Shown here piece after piece: positions 7,262 through 29,213 of a stretch of DNA of 32,218 nt. Under the pieces are notes generated by a model. The model worked only from the letters and a program-made list of their open reading frames with translations, was not told the origin of the DNA and ran no database searches. The stretch's first letter is position 1. Every line of letters starts with the position of its first letter. Origin of the DNA: an uncultured Bacteroidia bacterium (GTDB taxonomy: Bacteria; Bacteroidota; Bacteroidia; Bacteroidales; F082); contig CAJVWU010000047.1 in the NCBI GenBank assembly GCA_913009755.1, forward strand, positions 1 to 32,218, written 5' to 3'. The translations under genes were made by a program, and so were the position numbers.

Positions 7262-7316
7262 TCCTGGATAACAATAAACCCACATCTCAAATCAAACATC
7301 AAAAATCCAACATAAC

Positions 7317-7344
7317 AAATCAAAAATCGTAAATCAAAAATCGT
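7317..7344 (+). repeat. Two tandem copies of AAATCAAAAATCGT in an AT-rich leader
   Basis: The 14-base unit AAATCAAAAATCGT occurs at 7317-7330 and 7331-7344. Looser copies precede it from about 7289 (ATCAAACATC, AAAAATCCAA). It ends 9 bases before the ATG at 7354. Such 'aaatcaaaaatcgtaa' runs are a familiar small intergenic repeat of Bacteroidota. On the minus strand they give spurious peptides rich in FDLRF, which should not be annotated as genes. Confidence 0.75.
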
Positions 7345-7353
7345 AAGCCCCTC

Positions 7354-10965: not shown

Positions 10966-11398
10966 AAGTAATAAATGTATAATCGGCTATGTGGAAAAAA
11001 AATGGACTTACACTAAAATCCAGGCTTTTTTAAAAAATGATGTTGACAAAGTAGTGAAGTTTTTCTCATCTTCCTACAATTCAAAAGATTCGAAACTGTA
11101 TTTATACATTAACGATGAATTGCAGTGCGTTTTAAAAAAGGAAACCTGATACTGGTATGGTGTAACCAATACCGGAGACACTATTTTACTGACAGTAGTA
11201 TCGGAAAACGGTTTTCGGACAACAAAAACGATTATTAACCAATCCGTGAATGCAGAGGTTTATCTCATTATTGACAAATAGAGAAAAGCACCTCTTGTAA
11301 ACAAAGTCTATTCCCAAAAAGTCCGGAGTATTGAAAACATGATGATACCTAAAAACAGGGTTTATAAAGATGCTGAAAGCCATAATACCCTGAAATAA
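10952..11398 (+). pseudogene. Decayed hypothetical gene remnant with two in-frame stops
   Basis: One frame reads coherently for ~148 codons, to TAA 11396-11398, but is interrupted by TGA (11147-11149) and TAG (11279-11281). It also has a stop immediately upstream (10949-10951) and no usable ATG near the 5' end. Segments look protein-like: KKWTYTKIQAFLKNDVDKVV before the first stop, then NTGDTILLTVVSENGFRTTK, then KAPLVNKVYSQKVRSIENMM. I do not recognise the family. The 5' end merges into the toxin-antitoxin operator, as if the module's arrival truncated an older gene. It could also be chance coding-like sequence. Confidence 0.35.
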
Positions 11399-12757: not shown

Positions 12758-15358
12758 ATGGAAAACAGAAGCATTAATTTTTTTCAATCGGCAAATCTTA
12801 CTAATGAGGAAAGCAAACAGCATTTTGTCGTTAGGCAAAATGAGTTCCACCGGATAATCAGTGAAATAAAAAGGGATAAAATGGAAGGGTCTGTCCAGCA
12901 TTATATAGTGTTGGGACACCGAGGAAGCGGCAAATCCACGCTGTTGAGAAGGATAGAAGCCGAAATCTGTACAGATGAAGACCTTTCGACAAGATTTATG
13001 GTGGTTAACCTGAGTGAGGAGCAGGCAGGTATATACCGTCTTTATGATGTGTGGGATGCCGTGATAGAGGAAATGAAAGAAAGAAAAATTGCGGTGGAGA
13101 AAGTTTTATGGACTGGTTATTCCGATGACAGTATTGCCTATACCAGAAAACTGTTTCTGTCAATACAACAGGCCCTGAAAAGAGAAAAGAAAAAGCTGAT
13201 CCTGCTTGTTGACAACATTGACAGGATTTTTGATGCTATCGGCGAGGAAAGTCATCTGTTGCGTGAATTGCTGACCAATTATAACGATGTCCGCATAGTT
13301 GGGGGCAGCACACGGATGAATGAACATTACTGGAAATACGAAAAGCCGTTTTATCAGTTTTTCAGTCTCATCCGGCTTGAAGCGCTCACCGCCGATGAAG
13401 TTAAAATATTGCTGTTGTATTGGAGCGATTACCTGGGTCAGCCGGTTATCAGGAAATTTATTGAAGAACATCCTGGAAAGCTGAATACCATCAGGACACT
13501 GACCGACGGGATGCCGCGGACGCTTTTGTATTTTATCCAATTGTTAATTGACCGCCCGAATCAGAATGGCTTCGATTACCTGCGTTTTATTTTAGATCAG
13601 GCAACACCCGTTTATCAGGAACGGCTCCTGAAATTACCTCCCGCACAGCGAAAAATTGTTCTGGAACTTTCCTTTTTCCGTGATGCCGTAAAAGTTGAAC
13701 CACTAATTAACAAATGTAAAATGCCCGGGAAGGTGATTTCCGCGCAGCTTGCTCAATTGGAAAAAGCGGGAATTGTGGAAAAAATCAAAGGATTAAAGAA
13801 AAACAATTTATACCGGGTTGCTGAACGTTTCTTCAATTTATGGCTGGTGATGACCCAAGGAGGACCCAGGGAAAAGCACCAGGTGAAATACCTGACCTTG
13901 TTTCTCGAAAGCTGGTATGACCAGACTGAATTACAGCAATTGCTCACGGAACATCTGAATGCATTAAAATCAGGTGATCTGAAACCGGCGTATGCCGCCA
14001 TGATGACCAAAGCGCTCGTGCATTCCAGGTTTATTACTTTGGATGAACGGGATGAACTGATCAATAAAACAACAACATACAAAGGGGTGAAGCCTTTGGA
14101 TATTTCATTCCTTCCTGAACCTTCCGATAAAATTTTCGAAAAGATAAACAGACTGTTGAAGGATAAAAAATGTAATAAAGCAAGGGAAGAATTGAAAGCG
14201 GTAGATCAGGAGAATGCCGATAAATATTTTCTTTATGGCCTGTCTTATCATATAGAGGGCCAACTAGAAAGAGCTGAGGACTTCTACCTGCAAGCCATCG
14301 AAAAGGGGCATGTTGGTGCCCTTTACAACCTTGCAAATATGTATCGGGAAAGCGGCCGGAAAGAGGAAGCTGAAAAATACTACCTGCAAGCCATCGAAAA
14401 GGGGCATGTTGGTGCCCTTTACAACCTTGCAAAAATGTATCGGGAAAGCGGACGCCAAGAAGAAGCTGAAAAATACTACCTGAAAGCCATTGAAAAGGGT
14501 AATCTTGAAGCCCTTAACAACCTGGCAGTTATGTATGATAAATTAGGCCGAAAAGAAGAAGCGGAAAAATACTACCTGCAAGCCATCAAAAAAGGAGCTA
14601 TTAAGGCCCTGTTCAACCTGGCAAATATGTATCGGGAAACAGGGCGCACAGAAGAAGCGGAAAAATACTACCTGCAAGCCATCGAAAAGGGAGATGCTGA
14701 GGCCCTGAACAACCTGGCAGTTATGTATGATAAATTAGGCCGAAAAGAAGAAGCGGAAAAATACTACCTGCAAGCCATCGAAAAGGGAGATGTTAATGCC
14801 TTGTTTAACCTGGCAGTTATGTATAAGGAAACAGGGCGCACAGAAGAAGCGGAAAAATACTACCTGCAAGCCATCGAAAAGGGAGATGTTAATGCCTTGT
14901 TTAACCTGGCAGTTTTTTATTATTACGAAAATAGGAACCAGACGAAAGCATTGCAATTGATGGAACAAATCCCACCATCAAATCAGGATGAAAAATACAA
15001 ATTATTCTATGCTATTTGCTTATTGTGGGTGGGGAAGATGAAAGAATATGAGAACTTGATCAAAGAAATAGTACCAGAGATGATAAAAGAAGAGCAAGTT
15101 GAAAATCTTGAAATGTTATTTCTTGAATTACTGGTACACTATCAATCCCGTACGGTGTGGGAATGGTTTATGTCCGAAGAAACGGGAGAGCAGTTAAAAA
15201 AATTACTACAACCCTTATATTTTGTTACCGCCGGTTTTATCAACGAAGAGCGGGCAAAGGAAGAAGTGCTGAAAGCCGGGCCTGAGTTAAAAGAAAGTAT
15301 TGAGCAGATCAGGGAATACATTTTAAAAAGACAGGAATTTTATTACGGCAAGTCATAA
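12758..15358 (+). CDS. P-loop ATPase with C-terminal array of 32-residue TPR/Sel1-like repeats
   Basis: The protein has 866 residues. Walker A GHRGSGKS lies at residues 53-60 and Walker B LILLVDNID at about 147-155. A winged-helix region follows (LPPAQRKIVLEL, KMPGKVISAQLAQLEKAGIV), then the ERFFNLWLVM segment typical of archaeal-type ATPases. Residues ~504-727 are seven helical repeats of exactly 32 residues, with cores such as EEAEKYYLQAIEKG and ALYNLANMYRESGR. An unrecognised ~140-residue helical C-terminus ends the protein. The plan (NTPase plus helical repeats) is that of STAND-like sensors, where repeats recognise a ligand and the ATPase oligomerises. This is inference. No nuclease, protease, TIR or other effector domain was seen. 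The last 6 bases overlap the end of the convergent PLP-enzyme gene. Confidence 0.72.
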   Translation: MENRSINFFQSANLTNEESKQHFVVRQNEFHRIISEIKRDKMEGSVQHYIVLGHRGSGKSTLLRRIEAEICTDEDLSTRFMVVNLSEEQAGIYRLYDVWDAVIEEMKERKIAVEKVLWTGYSDDSIAYTRKLFLSIQQALKREKKKLILLVDNIDRIFDAIGEESHLLRELLTNYNDVRIVGGSTRMNEHYWKYEKPFYQFFSLIRLEALTADEVKILLLYWSDYLGQPVIRKFIEEHPGKLNTIRTLTDGMPRTLLYFIQLLIDRPNQNGFDYLRFILDQATPVYQERLLKLPPAQRKIVLELSFFRDAVKVEPLINKCKMPGKVISAQLAQLEKAGIVEKIKGLKKNNLYRVAERFFNLWLVMTQGGPREKHQVKYLTLFLESWYDQTELQQLLTEHLNALKSGDLKPAYAAMMTKALVHSRFITLDERDELINKTTTYKGVKPLDISFLPEPSDKIFEKINRLLKDKKCNKAREELKAVDQENADKYFLYGLSYHIEGQLERAEDFYLQAIEKGHVGALYNLANMYRESGRKEEAEKYYLQAIEKGHVGALYNLAKMYRESGRQEEAEKYYLKAIEKGNLEALNNLAVMYDKLGRKEEAEKYYLQAIKKGAIKALFNLANMYRETGRTEEAEKYYLQAIEKGDAEALNNLAVMYDKLGRKEEAEKYYLQAIEKGDVNALFNLAVMYKETGRTEEAEKYYLQAIEKGDVNALFNLAVFYYYENRNQTKALQLMEQIPPSNQDEKYKLFYAICLLWVGKMKEYENLIKEIVPEMIKEEQVENLEMLFLELLVHYQSRTVWEWFMSEETGEQLKKLLQPLYFVTAGFINEERAKEEVLKAGPELKESIEQIREYILKRQEFYYGKS
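14267..14938 (+). repeat. Seven in-frame 96-bp tandem repeats
   Basis: Units begin near 14267, 14363, 14459, 14555, 14651, 14747 and 14843, spaced exactly 96 bases. Neighbouring units share long identical runs, for example TACCTGCAAGCCATCGAAAA in nearly all. Units also alternate between an MYDKLGRK type and an MYRETGRT type, giving a 192-base higher-order period in the second half. The high DNA identity indicates recent duplication or gene conversion and makes copy number likely to vary. Confidence 0.9.
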
Positions 15359-16587: not shown

Positions 16588-17229
16588 TCAGCAACCACCC
16601 GAGGCTGCTACCACTTTCTTTTTACGGCGGATGACCACCGGTTTTTTCTTTGCAGTTTTTTGTGAATTATTGTTAACGGTAGTGCTACGGGCCACTTTGG
16701 CATAGTCGTACCGGGCCATGCCCTTTCGATAACTTTTATCGCCTTTTGTTTCAGCGAGGGTGTTTTTGTGGGTTTTGTAGTAATCGTAACCGCCAAGGAG
16801 GATTTTAACATTATTAAAACCAGTTTGTCGAAACCACATCCACGGGCCGTTAGCCTGAAGCTGGTCGTTACCGTAAAGCACAACGGTCATGTTTTTGTTC
16901 CGCAATTCTTTCAGGTGTTCAATATTTTCAGGATCAGTCAGGTCGTAAGCCGAAATGTTTTCAGCTCCGGGGATGTGTCCCTGTCCGTAAGTAAATTTAT
17001 CCCGTATGTCAATAAGAACGACTTCGCCGTTTACTTTGTTCAGAACATCAGCCAGTTGGAAGGGCTGAAAGCAGGCATCTTTATCATGCAGAAGCTGAAT
17101 GCTTTGTTGAAGTGAGAGCTTGTAAGTAAAACGGGGTTTTTTCAGGGTAAGAAAACCGACCAGGATAATCAACACAAAAATGATCACCGTTACCAGGGTT
17201 TTTTTGGGGTTTAATTCGTGAACATGCAT
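16588..17229 (-). CDS. Membrane-anchored rhodanese-like protein lacking the catalytic cysteine, C-terminal GGC tail
   Basis: The protein has 213 residues. An N-terminal transmembrane anchor (about residues 11-28, LVTVIIFVLIILVGFLTL) precedes a rhodanese fold: VVLIDIRDKFTYGQGHIPGA, VVLYGNDQ and NVKILLGGYDYY. The active-site loop that normally reads YCxxG here reads LYGNDQ, so the catalytic cysteine is missing. Only two cysteines exist: one in DKDACF and the very last residue. The C-terminus is a lysine/arginine-rich stretch ending IRRKKKVVAASGGC, nearly identical to the end of the neighbouring rhodanese at 17281-17892. It is the last gene of the Psr/YeeE operon, 51 bases after its paralog. Likely role: periplasmic or membrane-surface sulfane-sulfur handling, with the tail cysteine as possible carrier (inference). 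Confidence 0.8.
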   Translation of the reverse strand: MHVHELNPKKTLVTVIIFVLIILVGFLTLKKPRFTYKLSLQQSIQLLHDKDACFQPFQLADVLNKVNGEVVLIDIRDKFTYGQGHIPGAENISAYDLTDPENIEHLKELRNKNMTVVLYGNDQLQANGPWMWFRQTGFNNVKILLGGYDYYKTHKNTLAETKGDKSYRKGMARYDYAKVARSTTVNNNSQKTAKKKPVVIRRKKKVVAASGGC

Positions 17230-17280
17230 CTTTTTTGTTTTTTTAACCGTTTTAAAAATGAAAGACCTTCTGTGTGAAAA

Positions 17281-17892
17281 TTAGCAGCCACCCGAAGCAG
17301 CCACTTGTTTTTTCTTTCTTCTGACCACTACTTTTTTCTTTTTTGCGATGGTGTTTTCCACTTTAGTACCTGTAAAATACATTTGCACCCCTTTCCTGAA
17401 CTGGTATTGTTCAAAAGCAGTATATGGCTCATCTTCCCGGGGTTCTTTTGGTTGAATTATGGTTTCAATCCATTGGTTCAGGCCGCCTTTCATCACATAA
17501 GTGCCACCATATCCCATACGGCGTGTGATCACCCAGGCCTGGTCGGCAGCTATGTCATCATTGGAATAAAAAACCACTTTTATGCCGGGTAATCCAAAAT
17601 AATCCTGACTGACAGGAGAGAGCAGACTGTCGAGCGGAACATTTACGGCATTGGCCAGTGCAAACTTTTCAAAAGAATTCACGTCCCTGACATCCACCAG
17701 TTCCAGCGAAGGGTCTTTGTCAATAATCATTTTTGCCACCTGATCGGTCGAGACATATCGCGTGGGCTGGATAATGTCCCATAATAATGTTTCGGGTTTT
17801 ATTTGCTTATATTCCGGCGTTTTTTTCAGAAAAAGGGTTCCTGCTGCAAGAACGAGCATTATCAGGGTAAGAAATAGATAATTTCTGTTCAT
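17281..17892 (-). CDS. Membrane-anchored rhodanese-like protein whose only cysteine is the C-terminal residue
   Basis: The protein has 203 residues. An N-terminal hydrophobic anchor (about 5-21) precedes a rhodanese fold: ELVDVRDVNSFEKFALANAV, KVVFYSNDD and YVMKGGLNQW. The catalytic loop FYSNDD has serine where rhodaneses carry cysteine. The complete protein contains one cysteine, the final residue, in the tail VVVRRKKKQVAASGGC. It sits 4 bases after the YeeE/YedE-like gene, between the sulfur transporter and a second rhodanese of the same design, inside the operon headed by the molybdopterin oxidoreductase. It is either a sulfur-binding or scaffold domain, or a carrier using the terminal cysteine; a normal thiosulfate:cyanide transferase is unlikely. 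Confidence 0.82.
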   Translation of the reverse strand: MNRNYLFLTLIMLVLAAGTLFLKKTPEYKQIKPETLLWDIIQPTRYVSTDQVAKMIIDKDPSLELVDVRDVNSFEKFALANAVNVPLDSLLSPVSQDYFGLPGIKVVFYSNDDIAADQAWVITRRMGYGGTYVMKGGLNQWIETIIQPKEPREDEPYTAFEQYQFRKGVQMYFTGTKVENTIAKKKKVVVRRKKKQVAASGGC

Positions 17893-17896
17893 AATT

Positions 17897-18499
17897 CTAA
17901 AATTTGTATTCTGTTATTTTTTTCCGAACCTTTTTTTCAATAAGCATTGTAACCCAGAAAGCTGCCAAAGCAATAATAACAAAGGCAAAAGCAAACCAGG
18001 CCGCGTTAATTCCCGTAACATCGGTAAGTGTTACATGACCTAAGTTGCCACTATTATAGAAACCTTTAAACAGCGGAAAGCTTTCTGAGAATATGAATAT
18101 GCCAAGATAAAGGCCGACTGTAAAAACAAGGCCGTCAATTTTCCCGATTGAGATGGCTGTAAAGCTGGTTCCGGGGCAAAAACCACCCATCAGAAAACCG
18201 AAACCCATAATTACTCCACCGAGAAGCATAGCAGGCCAAAAGGTTGGGAGAATAAAAATCTGGGAAAGATTGATCCATCCAAAATAATCAAAGTACAACA
18301 AGCCGACCATAGCGACAATTACGGCTGTAAAAAAAACGCGCAATACAACAAAATTGTATCCGTAAAAAACACCGGCAATATTTCTTGAGGAAGAAAAGCC
18401 GGAGGCTTCCAGAATAAATCCAAAAGCTATTCCCACCAAAATGGCAATAACAAAGTTCCAGTCGCCTGTGATGATACCATTCGGAATAAGAGGTCCCAT
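17897..18499 (-). CDS. YeeE/YedE-family sulfur transporter, second half
   Basis: The 200-residue membrane protein has several hydrophobic helices (for example IAILVGIAFGFILEASGF). It carries the family's cysteine motif GGFCPGTS in a glycine-rich helix, MGFGFLMGGFCPG. YeeE/YedE (Sulf_transp) proteins move thiosulfate or other sulfur species across the inner membrane using conserved cysteines, and are often split into two half-size genes like this pair. It lies 27 bases after the other half (18527-19063) and just before the two rhodanese genes. The LFKGFYNSGNLGHV loop and an additional C-terminal helix make this half longer. The transported species (thiosulfate, sulfane sulfur or another) is not determinable here. 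Confidence 0.85.
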   Translation of the reverse strand: MGPLIPNGIITGDWNFVIAILVGIAFGFILEASGFSSSRNIAGVFYGYNFVVLRVFFTAVIVAMVGLLYFDYFGWINLSQIFILPTFWPAMLLGGVIMGFGFLMGGFCPGTSFTAISIGKIDGLVFTVGLYLGIFIFSESFPLFKGFYNSGNLGHVTLTDVTGINAAWFAFAFVIIALAAFWVTMLIEKKVRKKITEYKF

Positions 18500-18526: not shown

Positions 18527-19063
18527 TTAAATCCATAATTTTCTGAAAAACCAGGCAACAGCATAGCCCGTGCCAAAAATAGTGAGCATAACAATTACGC
18601 CACCCAGCGCAAAAGTGGCACTGCCACTTAAAGCGGCACCACTGGTACATCCGCGGCCAAACTGACTACCGGCCCCAAAAAAGATTCCACCCAAAAGAGC
18701 GAAAATCAGCCTGGTTTTACTTGTGATTTTCGGACTATGTTCCACCCATGGTTTTCGTATCCTCCGGAAAATAATTCCGGAAAGTAAGCCACCAAAAAAA
18801 ATGCCCAACGATTCAAATACCAGCCAATTATACATTGGTGAACGATCGCCGCTAATAAATTTCCCCATATAAGCATTGGCTTTAGCGAGTGTCGGGCTAA
18901 TTGCATCGGCAGTTGTAACCACGGTACTTTTTACTGCCCCACTGGCACCCAGCCCGCGTCCTGTAATATAAACAGTTAACAGCACCAATAACCCAAGTAA
19001 AACACCCCCCAAATAGGGATTAATATAATTGGGCTTGTAATTGTTTTTTGTTTGTGTGTTCAT
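18527..19063 (-). CDS. YeeE/YedE-family sulfur transporter, first half
   Basis: The 178-residue membrane protein starts with a helix, YLGGVLLGLLVLLTVYITGR, then the family motif GRGLGASGAV. The second conserved cysteine element follows as GAGSQFGRGCTSGAALSG. Together with the following gene it makes up the two halves of a full YeeE/YedE transporter (the PmpA/PmpB-like arrangement). It follows the NrfD-type subunit gene by 18 bases and so belongs to the same operon as the Mo-oxidoreductase. That suggests transport of the oxidoreductase's sulfur product or substrate. Confidence 0.85.
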   Translation of the reverse strand: MNTQTKNNYKPNYINPYLGGVLLGLLVLLTVYITGRGLGASGAVKSTVVTTADAISPTLAKANAYMGKFISGDRSPMYNWLVFESLGIFFGGLLSGIIFRRIRKPWVEHSPKITSKTRLIFALLGGIFFGAGSQFGRGCTSGAALSGSATFALGGVIVMLTIFGTGYAVAWFFRKLWI

Positions 19064-19081: not shown

Positions 19082-20023
19082 TCAATATAAAAATCGGGTA
19101 ATCTGGCCTGCCTCAACCATTACAAAACGAAACATTAAACCCCCAAATAAAATAAGGAAAGCGGGTACCCATCTGGGAACGCGATAACCTGATAATTCCA
19201 GAATTTCAAGAATGCCGGGAAGTATAAGGCCCAGCAGAACAACAAAAACCCAAAAGCTAACGGTAAAAGGGCCTCCCAGGAACAATTTAAAGGCTTCCAG
19301 TTTTACTGCCGTACCGGCCATAAACCCCATAAACAGATGGATGATCAGAAAAAGTTCAACGGCGATAAAAATCAGGTCGAGACGACTCAAAACTTTCCGT
19401 TCATGTTCATCCCTGCTAATCCACATGGTGGCTGCCAGTCCGGTAGAAAATCCGGAAACCAGAAACAGCGGGCCCAAAATGGAAGTGTTCCATAAAGGAC
19501 GGGCATTAAATGCAGAGAGGAGGATTCCGGTATAAACGCCTAAAATAATGGAGAGAATCATCATTATCCAGGCAAAAGGTATCCGGTTTTTAATCACCCA
19601 CTTTTCAAAACTGTTTAAGAAACCGAGTTTCCAATCCCATTTAGGAAACATTTCTTTCATATAACTCGCTACCCAAACCATTGACAAAGGGGTAATCAGC
19701 ATCAATGTCCATGCTCCCCACGACATAGGCGATGTGAAACGTATGGTTGTGTATAATTTCCAAAAATATAATTTATGATTTAAATCCCAAAATAAAGCTC
19801 CGAGGCCTATTACCAGCGCAGCCGGGGCAATAATGGAGGCCCACTTAACTGCTGCAGGCATTTCTTTTTCTTTGCCACGAACCACAAAATAAGCGGCAAA
19901 AAAGATTACACCGGCTGCCAGTCCTCCGAGAAAGAGGTAAAGCGCAATTTGCCAGTGCCACATATTTAAATACGGATCAATGCCTGGGATATTACGACCG
20001 CTAACTATCAATTCTTCCTTCAT
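19082..20023 (-). CDS. NrfD/PsrC-type quinone-interacting membrane subunit
   Basis: The 313-residue protein has about eight hydrophobic segments. It starts with the characteristic NMWHWQIALYLFLGGLAAGV, then VIGLGALFWDLNHKLYFWKL, SPMSWGAWTLM, and ILLSAFNARPLWNTSILGPLFLVSG in pieces. This is the NrfD/PsrC family, the membrane anchor that exchanges electrons with quinol for polysulfide, thiosulfate, tetrathionate and related reductases. It comes directly after the ferredoxin subunit gene (21-base gap), in the A-B-C order of psr/phs operons. In the expected arrangement electrons flow from menaquinol through this subunit to the four Fe-S clusters and the Mo site, or in reverse during sulfur oxidation. 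Confidence 0.92.
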   Translation of the reverse strand: MKEELIVSGRNIPGIDPYLNMWHWQIALYLFLGGLAAGVIFFAAYFVVRGKEKEMPAAVKWASIIAPAALVIGLGALFWDLNHKLYFWKLYTTIRFTSPMSWGAWTLMLITPLSMVWVASYMKEMFPKWDWKLGFLNSFEKWVIKNRIPFAWIMMILSIILGVYTGILLSAFNARPLWNTSILGPLFLVSGFSTGLAATMWISRDEHERKVLSRLDLIFIAVELFLIIHLFMGFMAGTAVKLEAFKLFLGGPFTVSFWVFVVLLGLILPGILEILELSGYRVPRWVPAFLILFGGLMFRFVMVEAGQITRFLY

Positions 20024-20044: not shown

Positions 20045-20578
20045 TTATGTAAGAAAATATAATTGGGGTTTGGTTCCTGCTTCCGGAGCCAGCACATACC
20101 ACTTTCTGTTTTTAAGTGCCAGAGACACCTCGCTGTTTGGATTATCGAGGTCGCCAAAATGGAGACAGTGCGTAGGGCACACATCTACGCAGGCGGGATT
20201 TTGTCCTTTATCAATGCGCTGAATACAGAAAGTGCATTTATCCACATATCCATCCGGGTGAACATACCGGGCATCATAAGGACACGACTCAATACAGGCA
20301 CTACAACCGATACAATCGTCGTGGGTTACCAAAACAATACCTCCTTCAGCTATATGGCTTGCGCCGGTGGGGCAGCACCTCACACAGGGAGCATTATCAC
20401 AATGATTACATCGTTCGGAACGGAAATTCATATTTAGATTCGGATAAGTTCCCGCAACATTCTCCACAATCCAGTCACGGGAAAAACCATGAGGGACATT
20501 GTTTTCCGTTTGACAGGCTACCACACAATCGGCACAGCCTACACACTTATTGGTATCAATAGCCATTGCATATCTCAT
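20045..20578 (-). CDS. Four-cluster ferredoxin subunit (PsrB/PhsB/NrfC-like)
   Basis: The 177-residue protein has four cysteine groups: CVGCADCVVACQ, CNHCDNAPCVRCCPTGA, CIGCSACIESCPYDARY, and CTFCIQRIDKGQNPACVDVC. This is the electron-transfer subunit between the membrane NrfD-type subunit and the catalytic Mo subunit. It has no Tat or Sec signal of its own, as usual, since it is exported with the catalytic subunit. Its ATG overlaps the stop of the catalytic gene (ATGA), and an AGGAGG Shine-Dalgarno-like sequence lies inside the end of the upstream gene, so the two are translationally coupled. Confidence 0.93.
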   Translation of the reverse strand: MRYAMAIDTNKCVGCADCVVACQTENNVPHGFSRDWIVENVAGTYPNLNMNFRSERCNHCDNAPCVRCCPTGASHIAEGGIVLVTHDDCIGCSACIESCPYDARYVHPDGYVDKCTFCIQRIDKGQNPACVDVCPTHCLHFGDLDNPNSEVSLALKNRKWYVLAPEAGTKPQLYFLT

Positions 20579-22839
20579 GCTTTATCCTCCTTTCTGTTAT
20601 TTGCCGGAGCTTCTTTTAAAAACGTAACAAAATTGCCCCTCATTCCGGTACCCCCCATAATGGGATCTTCCATAACTTTTGAAATTAAATGTGTGTCGTT
20701 GGCTCCGCGTCCGTAAGCCCTTGTTAATTTTTTGTTGTCCTGGCCGAAACCATGGACCATGTAAACGGAATCCCAGCGGATGCGTTCGGTGATTCTCACC
20801 TTGATCGGGAAAATAGAAATGATACCATCTTGATTTTTCAGCCAGACCTCCTGTCCGTTTTTCAGGTTCCAGAGATCGGCAACTTTAGGATTAACCCACA
20901 CCTTGTTTTCTTTCATCAAATCCCATAAATTATGGTTATCAACGGTACGGCTGAAAGTGTGCATAGGCGCCCGTCCGTAATTCAAACGATAATATCCTTC
21001 GGGTGGTTCGGGATGATGTGTGTAGTCGGGAAAAGGATCAAATCCCTCCTCTTCCAGTTCAGTAGAATACAATTCTATTTTTCCTGTATTGGTGTTGAAT
21101 TCACAATCCTCCAGGTTTTGCAGGTTATACAAATCATCGTATTCCCTGTGGAATTTTTTCACGCCAATACGTTTCATCTCTTCCAGTGAAGATCCTTTTT
21201 GTTTTAACTGCCATTCGAGCATTTCCTCAATATTATCCCACTTGAAATAATCATCCAGTCCCAGGCGGTGAGCCAGTTGTTTGGCAATCCACCAGCCGGG
21301 TTTGGTTTCGTATTTGGGTTTGGCGGCAGGCATTCGCAGTGCCAGGTAAGGTTCCCGATGAGGGGAATCGCGCAAAATATCATAACGCTCAAGGTAAGTA
21401 CATTCAGGCAGAATCACATCGGCATACCCGGTAATGTCCATGGGCATGGTATCAATTACAACGAGAAAATCAAGACTGTGAATAGCCTGTAGTGTTTTTT
21501 TCTGATCGGGTAAAGAAGCCATCAGGTTTGTACCATAAACAATCCAACCTCTCAAATGGCAATCCCACTCAGGATTAGGAATGGTTGCATCGCAAATACC
21601 GGAAGTCAATACTTCCGAAGCCAGTTTGTATTTTCCTTTGGGGAAGGCATCACGCCACGATCTTTTAGGTTTTGGATAAGGCGGATGCGGATACGAAGGT
21701 AAATGCACTTTTTCAGGATTATAGAGTCCTCCCCGACGTCCCCAGGAGCCAAGTAATGCATTTAATATGGCAATGGCCCTGGAACGCTGGGTATCATCAC
21801 CATACCATACAACGTGCCTTCCGGGATGAACAATTACCGAAGGGGCAGCACCGGCCATTTCGCGAGCGGTCCGGCGAATTACATCCGGTTCAATGGTGGT
21901 AATTCCATAAGCCCATTCAGGGGTTTTGTCTTTAACATGTGCTTTCAGTTCACCAAAACCATACGTGTATTTTTCTACATAAGCTTTATCATACAACTCT
22001 TCTTCTATAATTACATGCATCCATGCCAGCAACAGGGCAATATCGGTAGCCGGTTTTATGGCCAGCCAATATCTTGAATGAGAAGCAGCAGTAGAGTAGC
22101 GGGGATCCACTGTAATAATGGTGGCCCCGTTATCAATGGCCTCCGACATCTCCTGGATTTGCCCATTGTGCATATTTTCACCGATGTGTGAGCCAATAAG
22201 CACCAAACATCTCGTATCACGAATGTCGGTCCGTTCCGGAGACAACACGCCTTCGCCGTAAGTGGCGAAAAAACCCACCTCGCGCGGACCCCGGCATTGT
22301 GCAAAAGAAGGTGCCGTAATGTTGGGCGAACCGTAAGCTTTGATTAAATGACTCATGATTTTTCCACCGGTTCCGTGTGCAAACAAAGCCATGCACTCCG
22401 GGCCATGTTCCTTACGGAGTTTATTCATATTGGCTGCCACCAAATTCAGGGCTTCATCCCAGGAAGCTTTACGAAAATACTGATGGCCTTTGTCATCTTC
22501 CTCACGGATAAGCGGTGTTTTCAGCCTGTTTTCGTCATTGTACATTCCGAGGCCTCCTGTTCCTCTCGGACACATACGCCCATTGCTGTGCGGATCATTT
22601 TTGTTGCCGATTATTTTTCTTATTCTCCCTTTTTTGTCAACATAAGTCCATCCGGCACATTTCCAAAAACAAACTTCACAATAGGTCGGGGTTGCAGTCA
22701 TATCTTCATCACTTACAGGCTCCTCAGTATTTTCCTCACCAAGCAGGTTCAGCCCTTTTACTTTAAGTGAATGCAACCCCAAAGCAGCAACTCCGGCGCC
22801 TGCCGTTGAGATTTTAATAAATTGACGTCTTGTTTTCAT
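20575..22839 (-). CDS. Tat-exported molybdopterin oxidoreductase, PsrA/PhsA-like catalytic subunit
   Basis: The protein has 754 residues. A Tat signal, MKTRRQFIKISTAGAG, opens it. A [4Fe-4S] site uses C54, C57, C61 and C90 (CEVCFWKCAGW, then MCPRG). The Mo-ligand loop SFAQCRGPREVGF gives C182, the cysteine ligand expected in polysulfide and thiosulfate reductases. The C-terminal domain contains NYGRAPMHTFSRT and DTHL, as expected for molybdopterin binding in the DMSO-reductase superfamily. Substrate is most likely polysulfide, thiosulfate or tetrathionate, judged by the Cys ligand and the YeeE/rhodanese/TusA neighbourhood; arsenate- or selenate-type activity cannot be excluded by eye. It heads a seven-gene operon. 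The 5' region carries a candidate promoter (22895-22902) and a Crp-like dyad (22994-23009). Confidence 0.92.
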   Translation of the reverse strand: MKTRRQFIKISTAGAGVAALGLHSLKVKGLNLLGEENTEEPVSDEDMTATPTYCEVCFWKCAGWTYVDKKGRIRKIIGNKNDPHSNGRMCPRGTGGLGMYNDENRLKTPLIREEDDKGHQYFRKASWDEALNLVAANMNKLRKEHGPECMALFAHGTGGKIMSHLIKAYGSPNITAPSFAQCRGPREVGFFATYGEGVLSPERTDIRDTRCLVLIGSHIGENMHNGQIQEMSEAIDNGATIITVDPRYSTAASHSRYWLAIKPATDIALLLAWMHVIIEEELYDKAYVEKYTYGFGELKAHVKDKTPEWAYGITTIEPDVIRRTAREMAGAAPSVIVHPGRHVVWYGDDTQRSRAIAILNALLGSWGRRGGLYNPEKVHLPSYPHPPYPKPKRSWRDAFPKGKYKLASEVLTSGICDATIPNPEWDCHLRGWIVYGTNLMASLPDQKKTLQAIHSLDFLVVIDTMPMDITGYADVILPECTYLERYDILRDSPHREPYLALRMPAAKPKYETKPGWWIAKQLAHRLGLDDYFKWDNIEEMLEWQLKQKGSSLEEMKRIGVKKFHREYDDLYNLQNLEDCEFNTNTGKIELYSTELEEEGFDPFPDYTHHPEPPEGYYRLNYGRAPMHTFSRTVDNHNLWDLMKENKVWVNPKVADLWNLKNGQEVWLKNQDGIISIFPIKVRITERIRWDSVYMVHGFGQDNKKLTRAYGRGANDTHLISKVMEDPIMGGTGMRGNFVTFLKEAPANNRKEDKA

Positions 22840-23239: not shown

Positions 23240-24298
23240 TTATTTGGCCAATGTTGCCCGATGGAGATTTGCAAAATACATAGCAAACGAACGGTATAGA
23301 AAATGTGTCCATTTACCAAAAGGGACAATAATAAGAGCCCATTGCACAAGTATAATTAAATTGACAAGATACATCCAGATATTATTTTCGAGGATATTTA
23401 CATCCATAAAAAGCCGCACCAAAAAGGCGGTTAAGCCCATCATGAACAACCAGATAACAAAAAACCAATCGCTGGGTTGTGAGTGCTTGCTGATTTCCTT
23501 GTCTTTTTGAATGCGTCGTCTTATAAAATCGAAGGTTACAATGAAAATGATTGCACTCTCCACATATCCCAATACAATAATGAACATGCTTTGGGTAGAA
23601 AACCAGTCAAGGAATACGGTAGTAAACAATAAGCCGAGATAGCCTAAAACCATAATAAAATGCTCGAACCAACGCAATTGATTATCGTCGCAACTAAGGG
23701 TGCGCTTTTGCGTAAACAGGTGAACAACCAGCTCGCCAATGGCTTTGATATAAACTGAAATTGGTGCTTTTATACCGGGTTTATAAACTGTCAGCCACCA
23801 CATGTAGATTATGTTGGGAAGTAAGATGGCCAAAAACACAAGGCTTATGGCGGCTATCTCGAAATAATGGCCGTAGTGCATGACTGTTTCAAGATTAAAA
23901 TGCCAATAAGCTCCAAACCAAATTACGACAGCAGCCAATAATACAAAAGCTGAAATGGAAGCGGCCAGTGATTTATAAAGCAAACCCGACAAGCCGGTCC
24001 AATCGTATTTTGAAATCAGCCACCTGCGCAAGGACATCATCAATTCTCCCGGGTCAGCTTCTCTCGGACATGTAATACTGCACTCACCGCAATAGTAACA
24101 CAGCCATGGATCAAGCGAAGCTTTAATCTCATCATCGAGGCCAAGCACGCTGTATCGAACCATTTTACGCGGAAAAGAATTATTTTCATCCGACAGGGTG
24201 CAAACTGCCGTACAATTGCCGCAATTGTAACAGGCATTGGGATCAAATGCACCATATTTTATTAGTTCATCAGTAAACTCAGGATTTATCCTTGCCAT
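23240..24298 (-). CDS. qmoC: QmoC-like HdrC-cytochrome b fusion protein
   Basis: The 352-residue protein begins with an HdrC-like ferredoxin part: CYNCGNCTAVCTLS and CYYCGECSITCPREADPGEL, two [4Fe-4S] cluster motifs. About six transmembrane helices follow (for example SISAFVLLAAVVIWFGAYW, AISLVFLAILLPNIIYMWWL, MFIIVLGYVESAIIFIV), the HdrE/cytochrome-b-like part. This soluble-plus-membrane fusion is the hallmark of QmoC, the quinone-interacting subunit of the Qmo complex of sulfate reducers and green sulfur bacteria. Here it should link the two HdrA-type flavoproteins to menaquinone. Its start overlaps the small winged-helix gene by 20 bases. It is the last gene of the dsrE-tusA-qmo operon. 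Confidence 0.85.
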   Translation of the reverse strand: MARINPEFTDELIKYGAFDPNACYNCGNCTAVCTLSDENNSFPRKMVRYSVLGLDDEIKASLDPWLCYYCGECSITCPREADPGELMMSLRRWLISKYDWTGLSGLLYKSLAASISAFVLLAAVVIWFGAYWHFNLETVMHYGHYFEIAAISLVFLAILLPNIIYMWWLTVYKPGIKAPISVYIKAIGELVVHLFTQKRTLSCDDNQLRWFEHFIMVLGYLGLLFTTVFLDWFSTQSMFIIVLGYVESAIIFIVTFDFIRRRIQKDKEISKHSQPSDWFFVIWLFMMGLTAFLVRLFMDVNILENNIWMYLVNLIILVQWALIIVPFGKWTHFLYRSFAMYFANLHRATLAK

Positions 24299-24575: not shown

Positions 24576-24586
24576 GATAAATTGTT

Positions 24587-26521
24587 TTAGATAGTTGGAA
24601 TTAAAGCATCAATCATACTTTCCACCTCCTGATCGGTCAGACCAATGAGTTCAAGGGCATTTACAGGGCAAACGGGCAGGCACATCCCGCAGCCTTTGCA
24701 AACGGCAGAATTTACTTTTGCCATGAACTTCCCATCCTTTTCAATTTTTTCAAAAGCGCTGTAAGGACAAGCTTCTTCACATTTTCCGCACCATTCACAG
24801 GTTTTCTCATTAACTTTGGCTACTGTAGGTTCTAATTCCAGTTCACCGGAATCCACCAGTTCAAAAGATTTTGTGGCGGCTGCCAGTGCCGAATTCATGG
24901 ACTCCATGATATTTTTAGGCCCCTGGCTGGCTCCGGAAATGGTAACTCCGTCAATAACGGTTTCCACAGGCCTTAGTTTCATGTGGATTTCGTTAAAGAA
25001 TTTATCCCTTCCTTTGGGAACTTTTAGTAAATTACTTATTGAATTATCTTTACGCGGTTCCATTCCGGTAACCAAAACCACCAGATCGGCAACCACTTCA
25101 AGCTCTTTATCGGTCGTAAGCACATCTTTGATTTTGACAATAGTCCGGTCACCTTGCTTTTCTATGATCGGCGGGTCATGTTCAAAAGATTGCAGGTAAA
25201 TATCGCCAAGCCGGGATGATTCATCATACCATATTTCGGCTTTGCCATAAGTTCTTATCCCCCTGTTAAAATGGTAGTTATGTATGTTTTTATATTTTTT
25301 CTTTACGGTAATGGCAGTATGAATATTGGCCGTGCAACAATAGCGTGAGCAATATTTGTTTTCTCCGTCCACCTGCCGGCTGCCCACACAATAGATATAT
25401 GCGATATGTTTTATCTCTTTGCCATTATAGGTCAGTTTATCATCACAATAATGCACAATTCTTTTAAACTGAGGAAAAGTAACTACATTATCAATTTCAC
25501 CATAGGCGAATTCTCCTTTTTTGGGCTCATAAGGGTCGAAACCGGTGGCCAGCAGAATGGAACCAACTTTTATATTAAGATTTTCAGTTTTTTGGCTAAA
25601 GTCAATGTTGCTGCATACTTTTTCACATTCACCACAGCGGGTACAGTTTTTCAAATCAATAGCCGGCAATTGCGGGTATTCACTGGGATAATTGTGGAAA
25701 ATTGCTTTACGTTTGGTAATGTTAAAATTAAATTCATCGGGTACTTCAACCGGACAAACATCAATTGCTTTCTGCAATTCCCCACTATTGCAATGAAGTT
25801 TAAAATGACGAGGTGTAATTTGTACTTTCAAATTAAAATTCCCAACACTACCTGAATTTTCAATGACTTCGGCACCTGTAAAAAGGGTCACATGTTTGTG
25901 TTTCATTACTTCGTCATACAGGCGGGTAATAAGTTCTTTTCCGGTTTCTTCGGTGATACAAAGGTCGTCCCATTGTGAAACACGGCCTCCCACAAAAAAT
26001 TCCCTTTCAATAAGGAAAACTTCTGAACCTGCTTCGGCCAACTCAATGGCGGCACGCATTCCGGCTACTCCGGCGCCAATTACTGCAACCGCTTTGGTAG
26101 ATTTTACTTTTATCGGTTCCAATGCTTCGGCATACCGGACTTTTGCGATGGCTGCTTTTACGATTTGTATGGCTTTTTCGGTGGCGCCTTCTTTATTGTC
26201 GGAATGTGCCCAGGAAACCTGTTCGCGGATATTGGCGTGGACATAATTGTATTTGTTTAAACCAGCCCTTTCAACCACTGCGCGAAAAGTCAGTAAATGT
26301 AGTTTTGGGGAACAGGATGCGACCACCACACCATCGAGTTTTCGGTTTTCAATATCCTCCACCATTTCCTTTTGGTTGGAATCGGCGCAGGCAAACATGG
26401 TCGTCTTGGCCAGAGAAACCCCCTCGTCATGTTCGATGGACTGACGCACTTTTTCCACGTCCACATAATCGGAGATATTTCCTCCGCAATGACAGATATA
26501 TACGCCTATTTTTTGTTTCAT
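24587..26521 (-). CDS. qmoB: HdrA/QmoB-type iron-sulfur flavoprotein
   Basis: The 644-residue protein starts YICHCGGNI, the HdrA N-terminal motif, then VVASCSPKLHL. A Rossmann FAD motif VIGAGVAGMRAA lies at 147-158. An internal cluster is CTRCGECEKVCSN, with the HdrA cysteine-rich segment YCVGSRQVDGENKYCSRYCC. Two C-terminal clusters follow: CEWCGKCEEACPYS and CKGCGMCLPVCPVNALEL. In known Qmo complexes the larger subunit QmoB carries a C-terminal MvhD-like domain. This protein ends right after the ferredoxin clusters, and an MvhD-like protein is encoded separately at 27828-28235, so it is closer to canonical HdrA. It shares an ATGA overlap with the upstream qmoA-like gene. Confidence 0.87.
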   Translation of the reverse strand: MKQKIGVYICHCGGNISDYVDVEKVRQSIEHDEGVSLAKTTMFACADSNQKEMVEDIENRKLDGVVVASCSPKLHLLTFRAVVERAGLNKYNYVHANIREQVSWAHSDNKEGATEKAIQIVKAAIAKVRYAEALEPIKVKSTKAVAVIGAGVAGMRAAIELAEAGSEVFLIEREFFVGGRVSQWDDLCITEETGKELITRLYDEVMKHKHVTLFTGAEVIENSGSVGNFNLKVQITPRHFKLHCNSGELQKAIDVCPVEVPDEFNFNITKRKAIFHNYPSEYPQLPAIDLKNCTRCGECEKVCSNIDFSQKTENLNIKVGSILLATGFDPYEPKKGEFAYGEIDNVVTFPQFKRIVHYCDDKLTYNGKEIKHIAYIYCVGSRQVDGENKYCSRYCCTANIHTAITVKKKYKNIHNYHFNRGIRTYGKAEIWYDESSRLGDIYLQSFEHDPPIIEKQGDRTIVKIKDVLTTDKELEVVADLVVLVTGMEPRKDNSISNLLKVPKGRDKFFNEIHMKLRPVETVIDGVTISGASQGPKNIMESMNSALAAATKSFELVDSGELELEPTVAKVNEKTCEWCGKCEEACPYSAFEKIEKDGKFMAKVNSAVCKGCGMCLPVCPVNALELIGLTDQEVESMIDALIPTI

Positions 26522-27822
26522 AATGTAGCCCTCCTTAAATAACTGGTTGTTTCTGCTGAGGCAGCACCTCCCGAAAGAATCGAATCGGGAATATCCATCG
26601 GGCCGGATGCCGTACCCGCTACAAATACTCCTTCAATGCTTGTTTTGGCCGGGCTTGCCAGGATATCCGATTGGTTGATAAAATGAAAGGGGTCAAGTTC
26701 AAGTTTTTGATTATCAAAAACATCGGAGATGCCCTGATGAGGCAACACACCCACCGAAAGCACTACCATATCATGTTCGGCTTCTTTCACAACTCCCGCT
26801 TCAATATCTTCGTAACGTAAAACCAGGTTACCGTTTTCTTTTTCAGTGATCTTTCCTGCTTTTCCTTTAATAAATTCAACCCCCATATCCTGGGCCTGGG
26901 CATAAAACTCATTAAATCCTTTTCCAAATGCCCGGATGTGCAGGTAATAAATTGTAATATCAGCCATTGGCAAAGCACCCATCAGCAACTGAGCCTGTTT
27001 AATGGAATACATGCAACAGATTTGTGAGCATATCGGATTTCCCACGGATTTATCGCGTGAACCGGTACACAACACATAAGCAATGTTATCGGGCATTTTG
27101 CCGTCACCCGGACGCAAAATGGTATTAAAAGGACGGGTAGGAGCCAGTTCACGTTCCATTTGCATGGAAGTAATTATGTTTTTATAAGTTCCATATCCGT
27201 AGCGTGGAATTTTCAGCGGGTCGAACAAATCAAACCCGGTAGCTACCACCACCGATTTTATTTTTACCAGAAATTCTTCTTCGATTTGTGTAAAATCAAT
27301 ACAATTGGGAGGACATACCCGTTCGCAGGCACCACATAAGATACAGTTTTCGATATCAATAACCGCGGCACGCGGACTGGCAATATTAAATGGAATATAG
27401 GCCGCTTTCCGTCCCACAAGGCCGTATTGATATTCATCAGAAACACTTACGGGACAAGCTTCTTCGCACAACTGGCATCCGGTACAGGCTTCAACATCCA
27501 CATAACGTGGTTTTTTTAGGATGATGGCTTCGAATTGACGTTCCCCCTTTTTGGTTATTTTTTTGGCTTCGGCACCGGTAAAAATTGTGATGTTGGAATT
27601 TCGTGCTATTTCCGAAACTTTTGGTGTGGTGATACAAGCCGCACAATCAAGGGTTGGAAACACTTTGCTGAGTAAAATCATTTTACCGCCGATAGAGGGT
27701 TCTTTCTCAACAAGCAAAACCTTATAGCCGAGTTTTGCCAGGTTCAGGGCTGACTCGCCCCCCGCAATACCACCACCAACCACAAGAACATCGTATTCCC
27801 ATGTTTTCATTTGTTCCTGCAT
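26518..27822 (-). CDS. qmoA: QmoA-like (short HdrA) iron-sulfur flavoprotein
   Basis: The 434-residue protein begins with an FAD-binding VLVVGGGIAGGESALNLA at about residue 12. The HdrA cysteine segment LDCAACITTPKVSE follows, then two ferredoxin-type clusters, CTGCQLCEEACPVSVS and CILCGACERVCPPNCIDF. Later come CTGSRDKSVGNPICSQICCMYS and the second dinucleotide-binding half, ending FVAGTASGPMDIPDSI. Its short length and lack of the N-terminal CHCGGN part match QmoA rather than full HdrA. It overlaps the larger flavoprotein gene by 4 bases. With QmoB, QmoC and the FlpD-like protein it should form a membrane-associated electron-transfer complex. No AprAB, the usual partner in sulfate reducers, is encoded here. 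Confidence 0.87.
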   Translation of the reverse strand: MQEQMKTWEYDVLVVGGGIAGGESALNLAKLGYKVLLVEKEPSIGGKMILLSKVFPTLDCAACITTPKVSEIARNSNITIFTGAEAKKITKKGERQFEAIILKKPRYVDVEACTGCQLCEEACPVSVSDEYQYGLVGRKAAYIPFNIASPRAAVIDIENCILCGACERVCPPNCIDFTQIEEEFLVKIKSVVVATGFDLFDPLKIPRYGYGTYKNIITSMQMERELAPTRPFNTILRPGDGKMPDNIAYVLCTGSRDKSVGNPICSQICCMYSIKQAQLLMGALPMADITIYYLHIRAFGKGFNEFYAQAQDMGVEFIKGKAGKITEKENGNLVLRYEDIEAGVVKEAEHDMVVLSVGVLPHQGISDVFDNQKLELDPFHFINQSDILASPAKTSIEGVFVAGTASGPMDIPDSILSGGAASAETTSYLRRATL

Positions 27823-27827: not shown

Positions 27828-28235
27828 TTAATTTGAAGATTTACTTAAATATTCGGTAAAACTTTTTACATGTTTTACAAAAGGCTCACTACATACCGAA
27901 CAAATGGCTGCCATTTTTAAACGGGCAGGATCTATTCCTTTGTCTTTCATTAACTGCTGGGTAACATTCATCAACTGCCCTGTTTTTTCGGTACATGTTT
28001 CACCATAGGGACAATCGGTGCCATCGGCAGCTAAGAATACCCCATCGAACCCCTGCTCTAATGCATGTAAAATCCATCTTGGTTTTATTGCACTGGAACA
28101 GGGAACAGGAATTGTGTAAACAGTTGGCGGATAGTGTAGCTTTAAAAGGCCGGCCATATCAATAGCCGGATCGGAGATTTTTTCCGTTGAGAAAACCAAA
28201 ATCTTAGGGCTATTATTTACTTTTCCACCTGCCAT
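27828..28235 (-). CDS. FlpD/MvhD-like iron-sulfur protein
   Basis: The 135-residue protein shows the pattern VPCSSAIKPRWILHALEQGFDGVFLAADGTDCPYGETC, here in pieces: C46, then GFDGVFLA, then C75 and C81. LMKDKGIDPARLKM then ICSVCSEPF gives C112 and C115. This corresponds to the MvhD/FlpD family, a small [2Fe-2S] protein that passes electrons to HdrA. In QmoB the same domain is fused at the C-terminus, whereas here it is a separate gene directly ahead of qmoA (5-base gap). It most likely delivers or accepts electrons at the HdrA-type subunit. Confidence 0.78.
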   Translation of the reverse strand: MAGGKVNNSPKILVFSTEKISDPAIDMAGLLKLHYPPTVYTIPVPCSSAIKPRWILHALEQGFDGVFLAADGTDCPYGETCTEKTGQLMNVTQQLMKDKGIDPARLKMAAICSVCSEPFVKHVKSFTEYLSKSSN

Positions 28236-28237: not shown

Positions 28238-28486
28238 TTATTTTTTTAGAAAGATTTTATAAAATCCTGCTTCTTCAAGTGTTCCCAGGTATTCATATCC
28301 TTTTTTGGTACACCATTTTGGAATGTCGCGACGGGTTCCCTCGTCAGCGGAAAGCACCTCCATAACTTGTCCTTTTTCAATTTGACCGATGGCTTTTTTT
28401 GCAGCCAATAGTGGTCCCGGGCATGAAGTTCCGCGGGCATCTACCGATTTGTCAACTGTTAATGCTGTTAATTCTTCTGTGTTCAT
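28238..28486 (-). CDS. tusA: TusA sulfur carrier protein
   Basis: The 82-residue protein contains the diagnostic CPGP motif (DARGTSCPGPLLAAKKAI, C22) followed by GQVMEVLSADEGTRRDIPKW, the TusA fold. TusA carries a persulfide on the CPGP cysteine. In dissimilatory sulfur metabolism it works with DsrE-family and rhodanese proteins to move sulfur between enzymes. Here it lies between the two dsrE-family genes and the FlpD/HdrA genes, with 2 bases to the next gene. That is the neighbourhood expected for cytoplasmic sulfane-sulfur delivery. Confidence 0.95.
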   Translation of the reverse strand: MNTEELTALTVDKSVDARGTSCPGPLLAAKKAIGQIEKGQVMEVLSADEGTRRDIPKWCTKKGYEYLGTLEEAGFYKIFLKK

Positions 28487-28793: not shown

Positions 28794-29213
28794 TTAAATA
28801 AAGAGGTTAATATCTGCCTCTTCCGCGGAAGTCATGTATTCACCAATGCCGCAGATATCATCGGCCAGATCAATGAAGTCGTCCGGTTTTTCGCCATGCC
28901 ATACTTTTCCGGCAAAGCCGCAAATGTGGATCTTTACATTGGTCATCTCTTTGGCTGTGCGGAAAGCTTCAGTCCAATGCGGAGTGTTCAGGCGTTTCAG
29001 GGAAGCCAGGAATTCGTCTTTCTTGTCAGTGATCTCGGATACCCTGTCATTTACCATTGCATTTTCTTTTTTAAATGCAAATGCAGCCTGCAACAGGACA
29101 AAGATGTCAACATCCATGTCTTCGGCGGCAGCACCACCAAGAATTACACCGGCAGCCGTGAGTTTGTCCACGCTTCCGGAAAACAGTGCTAAGGTTAATT
29201 TTTTGTTTGCCAT
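28794..29213 (-). CDS. DsrE/DsrE2-family sulfurtransferase-like protein
   Basis: The 139-residue protein runs LTLALFSGSVDKLTAAGVIL, VDIFVLLQAAFAFKKENA, then NVKIHICGFAGKVWHG with the probable sulfur-binding Cys, and ends EEADINLFI like the shorter DsrE gene that follows. DsrE-family proteins exchange persulfide sulfur with TusA. It is the first gene of the eight-gene dsrE-tusA-flpD-qmo operon. A strong AAGGAGG Shine-Dalgarno-like sequence lies just ahead of the ATG, which is uncommon in Bacteroidota and suggests high translation. The upstream 153 bases are shared with the divergent Crp/Fnr-type regulator. Confidence 0.85.
   Translation of the reverse strand: MANKKLTLALFSGSVDKLTAAGVILGGAAAEDMDVDIFVLLQAAFAFKKENAMVNDRVSEITDKKDEFLASLKRLNTPHWTEAFRTAKEMTNVKIHICGFAGKVWHGEKPDDFIDLADDICGIGEYMTSAEEADINLFI

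Follow-up and report, generated by a model that had tools for sequence, protein, structure and literature searches.

Proteins A and B, encoded next to each other in a 32,218-nucleotide stretch of DNA (the whole stretch analysed, hereafter the window), are by their sequences membrane-anchored rhodanese-fold proteins in which glycine or serine replaces the catalytic cysteine. Each ends in a basic tail with a terminal cysteine, and the two genes lie in one cluster with those of a PsrABC-type reductase and of two YeeE-type transporter halves. We propose, with a probability of about 0.55, that A and B are extracytoplasmic, SoxY-like sulfur carriers of a conserved module, the tail of which would act as an arm that links the reductase to an importer of the YedE1E2 type.

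Gene organization of the window

The genes follow one another in the order PsrA/PhsA-like, PsrB, NrfD/PsrC, YeeE1, YeeE2, then B and A, all on the minus strand (Table 1). YeeE1 and YeeE2 have 178 and 200 residues, respectively. Upstream of this Psr-YeeE operon, on the same strand (positions 23240-29213), sit HdrA2- and QmoC-like, FlpD, TusA and DrsE_2 genes, which suggest an adjoining cytoplasmic sulfur route. The window also contains an ATPase-like ORF (positions 12758-15358). Its several tandem repeats, near-identical and following the pattern EEAEKYYLQAIEKG, look Sel1/TPR-like by eye and are a possible source of length variation.

Table 1. Features of the window, with positions counted from its first nucleotide
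Feature	Position	Strand	Remark
Protein A	16588..17229	-	213 aa; N-terminal hydrophobic segment aa 11-29, Cys-less rhodanese loop, basic GGC tail
A active-site loop LYGNDQ	16861..16878	-	Gly at catalytic Cys position, judged by comparison with B
A tail, last 16 residues VVIRRKKKVVAASGGC	16591..16638	-	GGC kept in 31/31 A orthologues
Protein B	17281..17892	-	203 aa; N-terminal hydrophobic segment aa 4-22, Cys-less rhodanese loop, basic GGC tail
B active-site loop FYSNDD	17554..17571	-	Ser110 opposite loop Cys of solved rhodanese 6mxv
B tail, last 16 residues VVVRRKKKQVAASGGC	17284..17331	-	GGC kept in 30/30 B orthologues
YeeE2, PmpB/YedE-half-like transporter half	17897..18499	-	Single Cys = Cys108 in GGFCPGT motif
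YeeE1, PmpA/YedE-half-like transporter half	18527..19063	-	Single Cys = Cys139 in GRGCTSG motif
NrfD/PsrC-type membrane subunit	19082..20023	-	Profile match
PsrB-type iron-sulfur subunit	20045..20578	-	Profile match
PsrA/PhsA-like molybdopterin subunit	20575..22839	-	PhsA model E 1.9e-140, under the model's cut-off; Tat signal weak, under Pfam cut-off
QmoC-like subunit (context)	23240..24298	-	Match under the model's cut-off
HdrA2-like subunit (context)	24587..26521	-	Match under the model's cut-off
Second HdrA2-like subunit (context)	26518..27822	-	Match under the model's cut-off
FlpD/MvhD-like subunit (context)	27828..28235	-	Profile match
TusA-family sulfur carrier (context; possible cytoplasmic acceptor)	28241..28447	-	
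DrsE_2-family protein (context)	28794..29213	-	

A and B keep the rhodanese fold and share a cysteine-terminated tail

Pfam search (E ≤ 1) returned Rhodanese (PF00581) alone for each protein, with E-values of 2.5e-17 for A and 2e-13 for B. The rhodanese motifs VLIDIRD and LVDVRD are kept, together with the GG region (GGYDYY in A and GGLNQW in B), and the first-pass annotation was right to assign the rhodanese fold to both. It also correctly read the two active-site loops, LYGNDQ in A and FYSNDD in B, as devoid of the catalytic cysteine, an absence on which an active rhodanese was rejected. When the B profile is aligned with 6mxv, a rhodanese of solved structure, Ser110 falls opposite the loop cysteine, and structure comparison revealed that the predicted structure of B resembles solved rhodaneses. 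The model of B has a pLDDT of 77.3, falling below 50 for residues 177-203, such that the tail is disordered in the model.

The C-terminal ends of A and B, RRKKKVVAASGGC and RRKKKQVAASGGC, both consist of a basic stretch followed by AASGGC. Identical ends had been claimed at first; the shared basic, GGC-terminated end is indeed there, yet the tails are only near-identical, agreeing at 14 of the last 16 residues and using the same codon at four of the 16. The terminal cysteine is the sole cysteine of the 203-residue B, as had been noted, whereas A has two.

The tail is conserved in orthologues and, in the loci read, confined to rhodanese-type proteins

A scan of genome contigs with A identified 29 loci in MAGs labelled Bacteroidetes or its groups, or Chlorobiota, two of the loci coming from one Neomarinimicrobiota-labelled MAG; the phylum name Bacteroidota is our reading of these labels. 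Where the contigs are long enough, the order PsrA-PsrB-PsrC-YeeE1-YeeE2-B-A is kept, bar ORFs masked by overlap. Counting these loci, one further genome and the window, a profile search in which the tail was no selection criterion collected 31 A and 30 B orthologues (the contig of L031 stops before B), and every one of them has the GGC end. None of the 30 A and 29 B sequences aligned has a loop cysteine. The invariant columns near the end are Lys205, Gly211, Gly212 and Cys213 in the alignment of 22 A sequences, and Lys195, Gly201, Gly202 and Cys203 in that of 19 B sequences.

Two identical 71-residue ORFs downstream of the operon in L116 (positions 11183-11398 and 13574-13789) copy the C-terminal end of A including its tail; this genome is represented by one contig, and big minus-strand ORFs surround the two copies, perhaps as a repeated element. 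In L023, the segment at positions 5359-8173 adjoins the A/B operon and encodes SQR-like and DUF1641-like ORFs (by eye), a DsrC-family protein with a cysteine near its end and a DrsE_2 protein; ORFs of such sizes recur in several relatives.

A general sorting tag on unrelated proteins was also considered and rejected. All GGC-ending ORFs of the 29 named loci are rhodanese-like by their motifs, including seven besides A and B that carry the loop cysteine. Moreover, in the window's own genome a profile of the tail alone, basic stretch included, matched A and B, followed by a single match at E 3.9. Across 26 genomes this profile gave E < 1e-6 solely at A/B places and at two extra tail-fragment copies in G396, and its weaker matches in G502 (E 0.005-0.016) are tailed rhodaneses. 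In 20 wide loci plus the window, 23 of the 26 ORFs that match the rhodanese profiles carry the end cysteine, the other three being double-rhodanese-like (in L230 and L234), compared to a cysteine among the last two residues in 3 of 322 ORFs outside these profiles and a GC or GCx end in none of the 322. The terminal cysteine of rhodanese-profile ORFs is thus beyond chance. Of 45 rhodanese matches in six other genomes, we read 30; four have the tail, all YeeE-coupled, and no ORF at the other 26 matches (24 distinct) has a cysteine in its last two residues. One tailless rhodanese of this control set, L199, has a YeeE gene nearby and retains a loop that reads CSGGYR.

Tailed rhodaneses accompany one subclass of split YeeE transporters

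Within the same family, the B profile (E ≤ 1e-6) matched 65 of 100 genomes, and 20 stretches from these 65 revealed tails on non-orthologous proteins: A, B, YeeE2-rhodanese fusions of about 406-430 residues, A-like proteins that follow the fusion, and lipoprotein-like double rhodaneses. Most tailed members of the last type have a loop cysteine in both domains. In L127, the tail of B recurs on two proteins whose N-terminus looks like a lipobox by eye. Related double rhodaneses in L028, L029, L230 and L234 lack a tail. Since tail and loop cysteine occur together in some lipoprotein-type rhodaneses and tailless double rhodaneses exist, having a tail is not strictly tied to lacking the catalytic cysteine.

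For a survey of one phylum (395 genomes), we built a profile from 20 diverse B-like proteins, in which Leu65, Asp67, Arg69, Ala119, Trp120, Gly137, Ile145 and Cys203 (B numbering) are invariant. At E ≤ 1e-15 it matched at least 61 of the 395 genomes, and among the 60 best ORFs cysteine is the last residue in 53 and the second-last in five. The two tailless ones are L198, a rhodanese with the loop cysteine and no YeeE neighbour, and L174. In the latter (positions 1930-2550, genome G294), the YeeE-linked rhodanese gene is frame-broken and a KKKKREGC end is visible in another frame. The catalytic column of the 60 ORFs holds serine in 22, alanine in 21, glycine in 13, aspartate in one and cysteine in three, so the loop alignment that the first-pass annotation had suggested gives a non-cysteine residue in 57 of 60; L152 and L154 combine a cysteine in this column with the tail. 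That annotation had named homologues with the catalytic cysteine and without the tail as evidence against its reading. Such homologues exist, many with CxxGx[RS] loops, yet they are paralogues mostly outside the YeeE linkage.

A reverse search with a YeeE2 profile matched at least 66 of 395 genomes and at least 67 places at E ≤ 1e-40, the next match being at E 1e-22. YeeE1 lies within the stretch at all 67 places, and YeeE2 is fused to the rhodanese at 35. Cysteine is the last residue of the rhodanese partner at 57 places (including L145 and L159, where the partner ORFs start inside YeeE2 and end in EGC) and the second-last at nine, with the frame-broken L174 as the remaining place. The first-pass annotation had suggested a search for such tails beside NrfD/YeeE genes, and 66 of the 67 YeeE places have one, although GGC itself is not universal. 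Most loci behind the YeeE2 profile had been reached via tailed proteins, and at most 7-8 first-look candidates per genome were scored, so this count applies to a single transporter subclass and some copies may be missing from it. In the stretches read, no tailed partner lies beside four weaker YeeE2 matches (L284-L287), the neighbour of which, judged by eye, is either an MBL-rhodanese or an Acr3-like gene, or beside the full-length YeeE of L288 and L289, indicating that the tail goes with one transporter subclass.

Two types of reductase share the module

We read 20 loci, chosen for spread, over up to 19 kb. Beside the YeeE1, YeeE2 and rhodanese genes, twelve encode PsrABC, seven an octaheme tetrathionate-reductase-type cytochrome and one neither. 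The second type of cluster comprises an octaheme cytochrome of the tetrathionate-reductase family (571.6 bits to TIGR04315, the cut-off of which is 375), cytochrome b561, a double rhodanese, YeeE1 and YeeE2-rhodanese; we recognised the cytochrome b561 in six of the seven loci. In L107 (positions 2658-7792), L240-L243 and L246-L248, the octaheme cytochrome, usually with cytochrome b561, replaces PsrABC upstream of YeeE1 and YeeE2-rhodanese.

Two exceptions bear on which partner the tail serves. Genome G296 (99% complete as listed) encodes PsrABC together with B and A, both with GGC tails, and has no PF04143 match at E ≤ 0.001. YeeE therefore cannot be the sole partner, and the tail would be useful without it, most simply with PsrABC. 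Conversely, L244, whose tail ends in MGC, has YeeE with neither a Psr nor an octaheme gene nearby. Both cases are compatible with an arm that serves two partners, yet they leave space for a role with the reductase alone. Under that alternative, the terminal cysteine would offer the sulfur of polysulfide or thiosulfate to PsrA or the octaheme cytochrome in the manner of Sud, and YeeE would have a separate function. It accounts for G296 and for a Psr or octaheme cytochrome in 19 of the 20 wide loci, and Sud (1qxn) is the weakest of the listed sequence matches of the B profile (E 0.001). We consider it unlikely, given that the YeeE pair adjoins the tailed protein in the other counted loci, that the two are fused at 35 of 67 places, and that L244 has YeeE with no reductase nearby.

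The tails of A and B resemble each other within genomes

Over the nine residues before GGC in 30 genomes, the tails of A and B are 0.80 identical within a genome and 0.565 between genomes, compared to 0.184 and 0.179 for the rhodanese domains. Taking one representative for each of 10 clades, the tail identity of 0.733 exceeds the permuted mean of 0.543 and was reached in none of 10000 permutations; the domain shows a slight within-genome excess (0.195 against 0.186, 194 of 10000). Identical tail residues share a codon in 61 of 148 cases, against 60.9 expected from codon usage (15 genomes). Recent gene conversion as the general cause was rejected because this sharing is no higher than expected; in the main family, selection, or an ancient conversion followed by selection, thus holds the tails together, and such an ancient conversion may underlie the likeness. 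Tail copying also occurs, judging by near codon-identical tails of paralogues: three consecutive proteins of G502 end in HKKKKQAAAGGCE and both proteins of G296 end in VEVEEGGC, in each case with largely the same codons, which makes copying likely in these two genomes.

Matching tails within a genome are what one shared partner would produce, and they would also fit a redox or structural thiol that forms disulfides with the paralogue, YeeE or the reductase, for anchoring or sensing, and carries no sulfur. We regard this as somewhat less probable still than a role with the reductase alone, since the tail is also found on single B-like proteins and on fusions, and the tailed proteins in the loci read are of the rhodanese type and lie in sulfur loci.

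The cysteine, not the diglycine, is the constant part of the tail

Among the 58 tailed proteins of the phylum-wide set, 24 lack the Gly-Gly pair, ending in EGC (18), MGC (4), DGC (1) or FQC (1). The diglycine of the tail, as far as sequences can tell, is dispensable and the cysteine is not, which weakens the early analogy to the C-terminal Gly-Gly of ThiS and MoaD. It also weighs against a processed C-terminal signal, either cleaved after Gly-Gly to give a ThiS/MoaD-like thiocarboxylate or lipidated and anchored through the cysteine. Many members do have GG before the cysteine, at times with one further residue (GGCS, GGCG or GGCE), as such a signal might. Two members, however, have GGLCS, the window proteins already possess an N-terminal hydrophobic segment, and adenylation requires ATP, which is not expected outside the cytoplasm; processing of this kind is therefore quite improbable, and its ThiS/MoaD form was rejected, Gly-Gly not being required. 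The basic character of the tails, with a median net charge of +5 over the final 20 residues and +3 or more in 52 of 58, would suit a tail that binds a metal or mainly an anion, with an indirect link to sulfur, of which we see only a very slight chance: a lone cysteine with no conserved histidine or second cysteine makes a poor metal site, and the L042 tails have shed much of their basic charge but keep GGC.

Transporter halves and side of the membrane

YeeE1 and YeeE2 have one conserved cysteine each, and in some relatives YeeE2 has a second one six residues on. In the alignment with the YeeE1 profile, Cys139 of YeeE1 falls on the GGC in the C-terminal half of S. thermophila YeeE; this profile alone matched YeeE in the PDB, which was found neither by phmmer with single halves nor by the YeeE2 profile. 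The two halves have one cysteine each at the Cys293 and Cys91 positions, the match to Cys91 being by motif and half only. In passages of PMC11582611, the cysteine of PmpA is equated with Cys293 of S. thermophila YeeE and that of PmpB with Cys91. Neither half has an equivalent of the third, cytoplasmic-side cysteine of that protein. The arm as supplier of a missing channel cysteine was rejected, as the one missing is on the cytoplasmic side.

Hydropathy revealed an extra hydrophobic segment ahead of the rhodanese in the YeeE2-rhodanese fusion of L107, which would place the rhodanese on the other side of the membrane; structure prediction of the fusion was poor (pLDDT 57.9). The lipoprotein-like relatives with the same tail point to the same extracytoplasmic side. 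Our assignment of the side draws on these relatives, on simple hydropathy and on the cytoplasmic position of YeeD given in published excerpts.

A proposed sulfur carrier arm

The fusion of L107 and the lipoprotein-like relatives led us to propose a carrier arm outside the cytoplasm, for which we infer the side of the membrane, the loading of sulfur, the direction of flow and the docking. The rhodanese fold would have given up catalysis and, tethered to the membrane, most likely serve for docking or binding. The functional residue would be the last or next-to-last one of a basic and disordered arm, the cysteine, with an arm length of some 25 residues or more. Outside the cytoplasm, this cysteine might be loaded with sulfur, as a persulfide, S-sulfonate or polysulfide, at a partner enzyme of the PsrABC type in the window and of the octaheme tetrathionate-reductase type in other lineages. 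The loaded cysteine could then be offered to the YeeE1/YeeE2 importer with its two channel cysteines, as proposed for SoxY and SoxT, and TusA or DsrE-type carriers might accept the sulfur in the cytoplasm.

The published excerpts are compatible with such a route. The YedE1E2 pair imports zero-valent sulfur and both of its cysteines are essential (passages of PMC10812762). In passages of PMC11582611, the transfer of sulfur from the SoxY cysteine along the channel cysteines of the YeeE-like SoxT is called "conceivable", and handover outside the cytoplasm to a YeeE-type importer is said to occur "by unknown means". The first-pass annotation had pictured a swinging arm between Psr, YeeE and the rhodanese domains. 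Apart from its ThiS/MoaD analogy, this picture fits the comparative evidence, namely the near-universal terminal cysteine, operons with YeeE and a periplasmic-type sulfur reductase, modelled disorder, and the likeness of the tails within a genome. A wider picture, somewhat less probable than the proposal itself, can be offered tentatively: many Bacteroidota might possess an undescribed extracytoplasmic carrier in which the sulfur-holding cysteine of a rhodanese is found at the end of a basic arm and no longer in the active site. This arm would collect from either of two unrelated respiratory enzymes and feed a split YeeE from outside as the mirror image of the inner YeeD, the tails of one genome being alike because of a shared receiving site.

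The first-pass annotation knew of no description of the tail. Likewise, none is found in the titles and abstract openings of the open papers searched, or in the available passages of PMC11582611, PMC11073785, PMC10812762, PMC13047784, PMC12998232 and PMC11237559. The carrier would clearly exemplify an enzyme fold without its active-site residue, with the same chemistry apparently shifted to a tail. As a dedicated and often fused partner with a single kept thiol, it makes handover to a YeeE-type importer testable by a one-residue change, and the tailed rhodanese provides a marker by which sulfur metabolism can be traced in the phylum.

Comparison with known sulfur-transfer systems

The transporter halves resemble YedE1E2/PmpA-PmpB, in which two half-transporters with one conserved cysteine each match the N- and C-halves of YeeE. 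Those halves are given as about 130 residues in the excerpts available, whereas the window halves are longer and partnered with a tailed rhodanese. One survey reports YedE1/YedE2 almost only in Proteobacteria (passages of PMC10812762), and YeeE-type proteins are noted in some Bacteroidota (passages of PMC11582611). In the YeeE-YeeD (TsuA-TsuB) system of thiosulfate uptake, as described in excerpts, the partner extends the cysteine relay of the channel and can share a chain with YeeE, as here. However, YeeD is there a cytoplasmic TusA-type protein, whereas the partner in our loci has a rhodanese fold, comes with an extra hydrophobic segment and appears extracytoplasmic. The YTD cluster unites yedE, tusA, dsrE and 2-3 hypothetical genes and was compared on yedE, tusA and dsrE alone; in the window, Psr and Hdr/Qmo-like genes separate the TusA/DsrE-type genes from YeeE, over a distance of about 9-10 kb.

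Among carriers, Sud is a polysulfide-sulfur transferase, a rhodanese-fold partner of polysulfide reductase encoded next to Psr in Wolinella, and its structure (1qxn) is a weak match. Sud binds polysulfide via its rhodanese active-site cysteine, whereas A and B have lost that cysteine and kept the terminal one. DsrC has its functional cysteine at the end of a C-terminal arm, like A and B, but is cytoplasmic and of another fold, and its domain (PF04358) is not matched by either. ThiS and MoaD expose a C-terminal Gly-Gly, whereas in A and B a cysteine follows the glycines and the fold is that of rhodanese.

SoxY ends in GGCGG. As part of SoxYZ it is extracytoplasmic and bears sulfur intermediates on the cysteine of a peptide swinging arm (passages of PMC11237559), as we propose for A and B. 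Its fold differs, its domain (PF13501) is matched by neither protein, and the window's own genome has no SoxY match; membership in the DsrC or SoxY families was rejected, the domain matches being absent. The disorder of the tail in the B model and the kept cysteine would suit a putative arm of the SoxY type, and by analogy SoxY may serve as a closer working model for A and B than DsrC.
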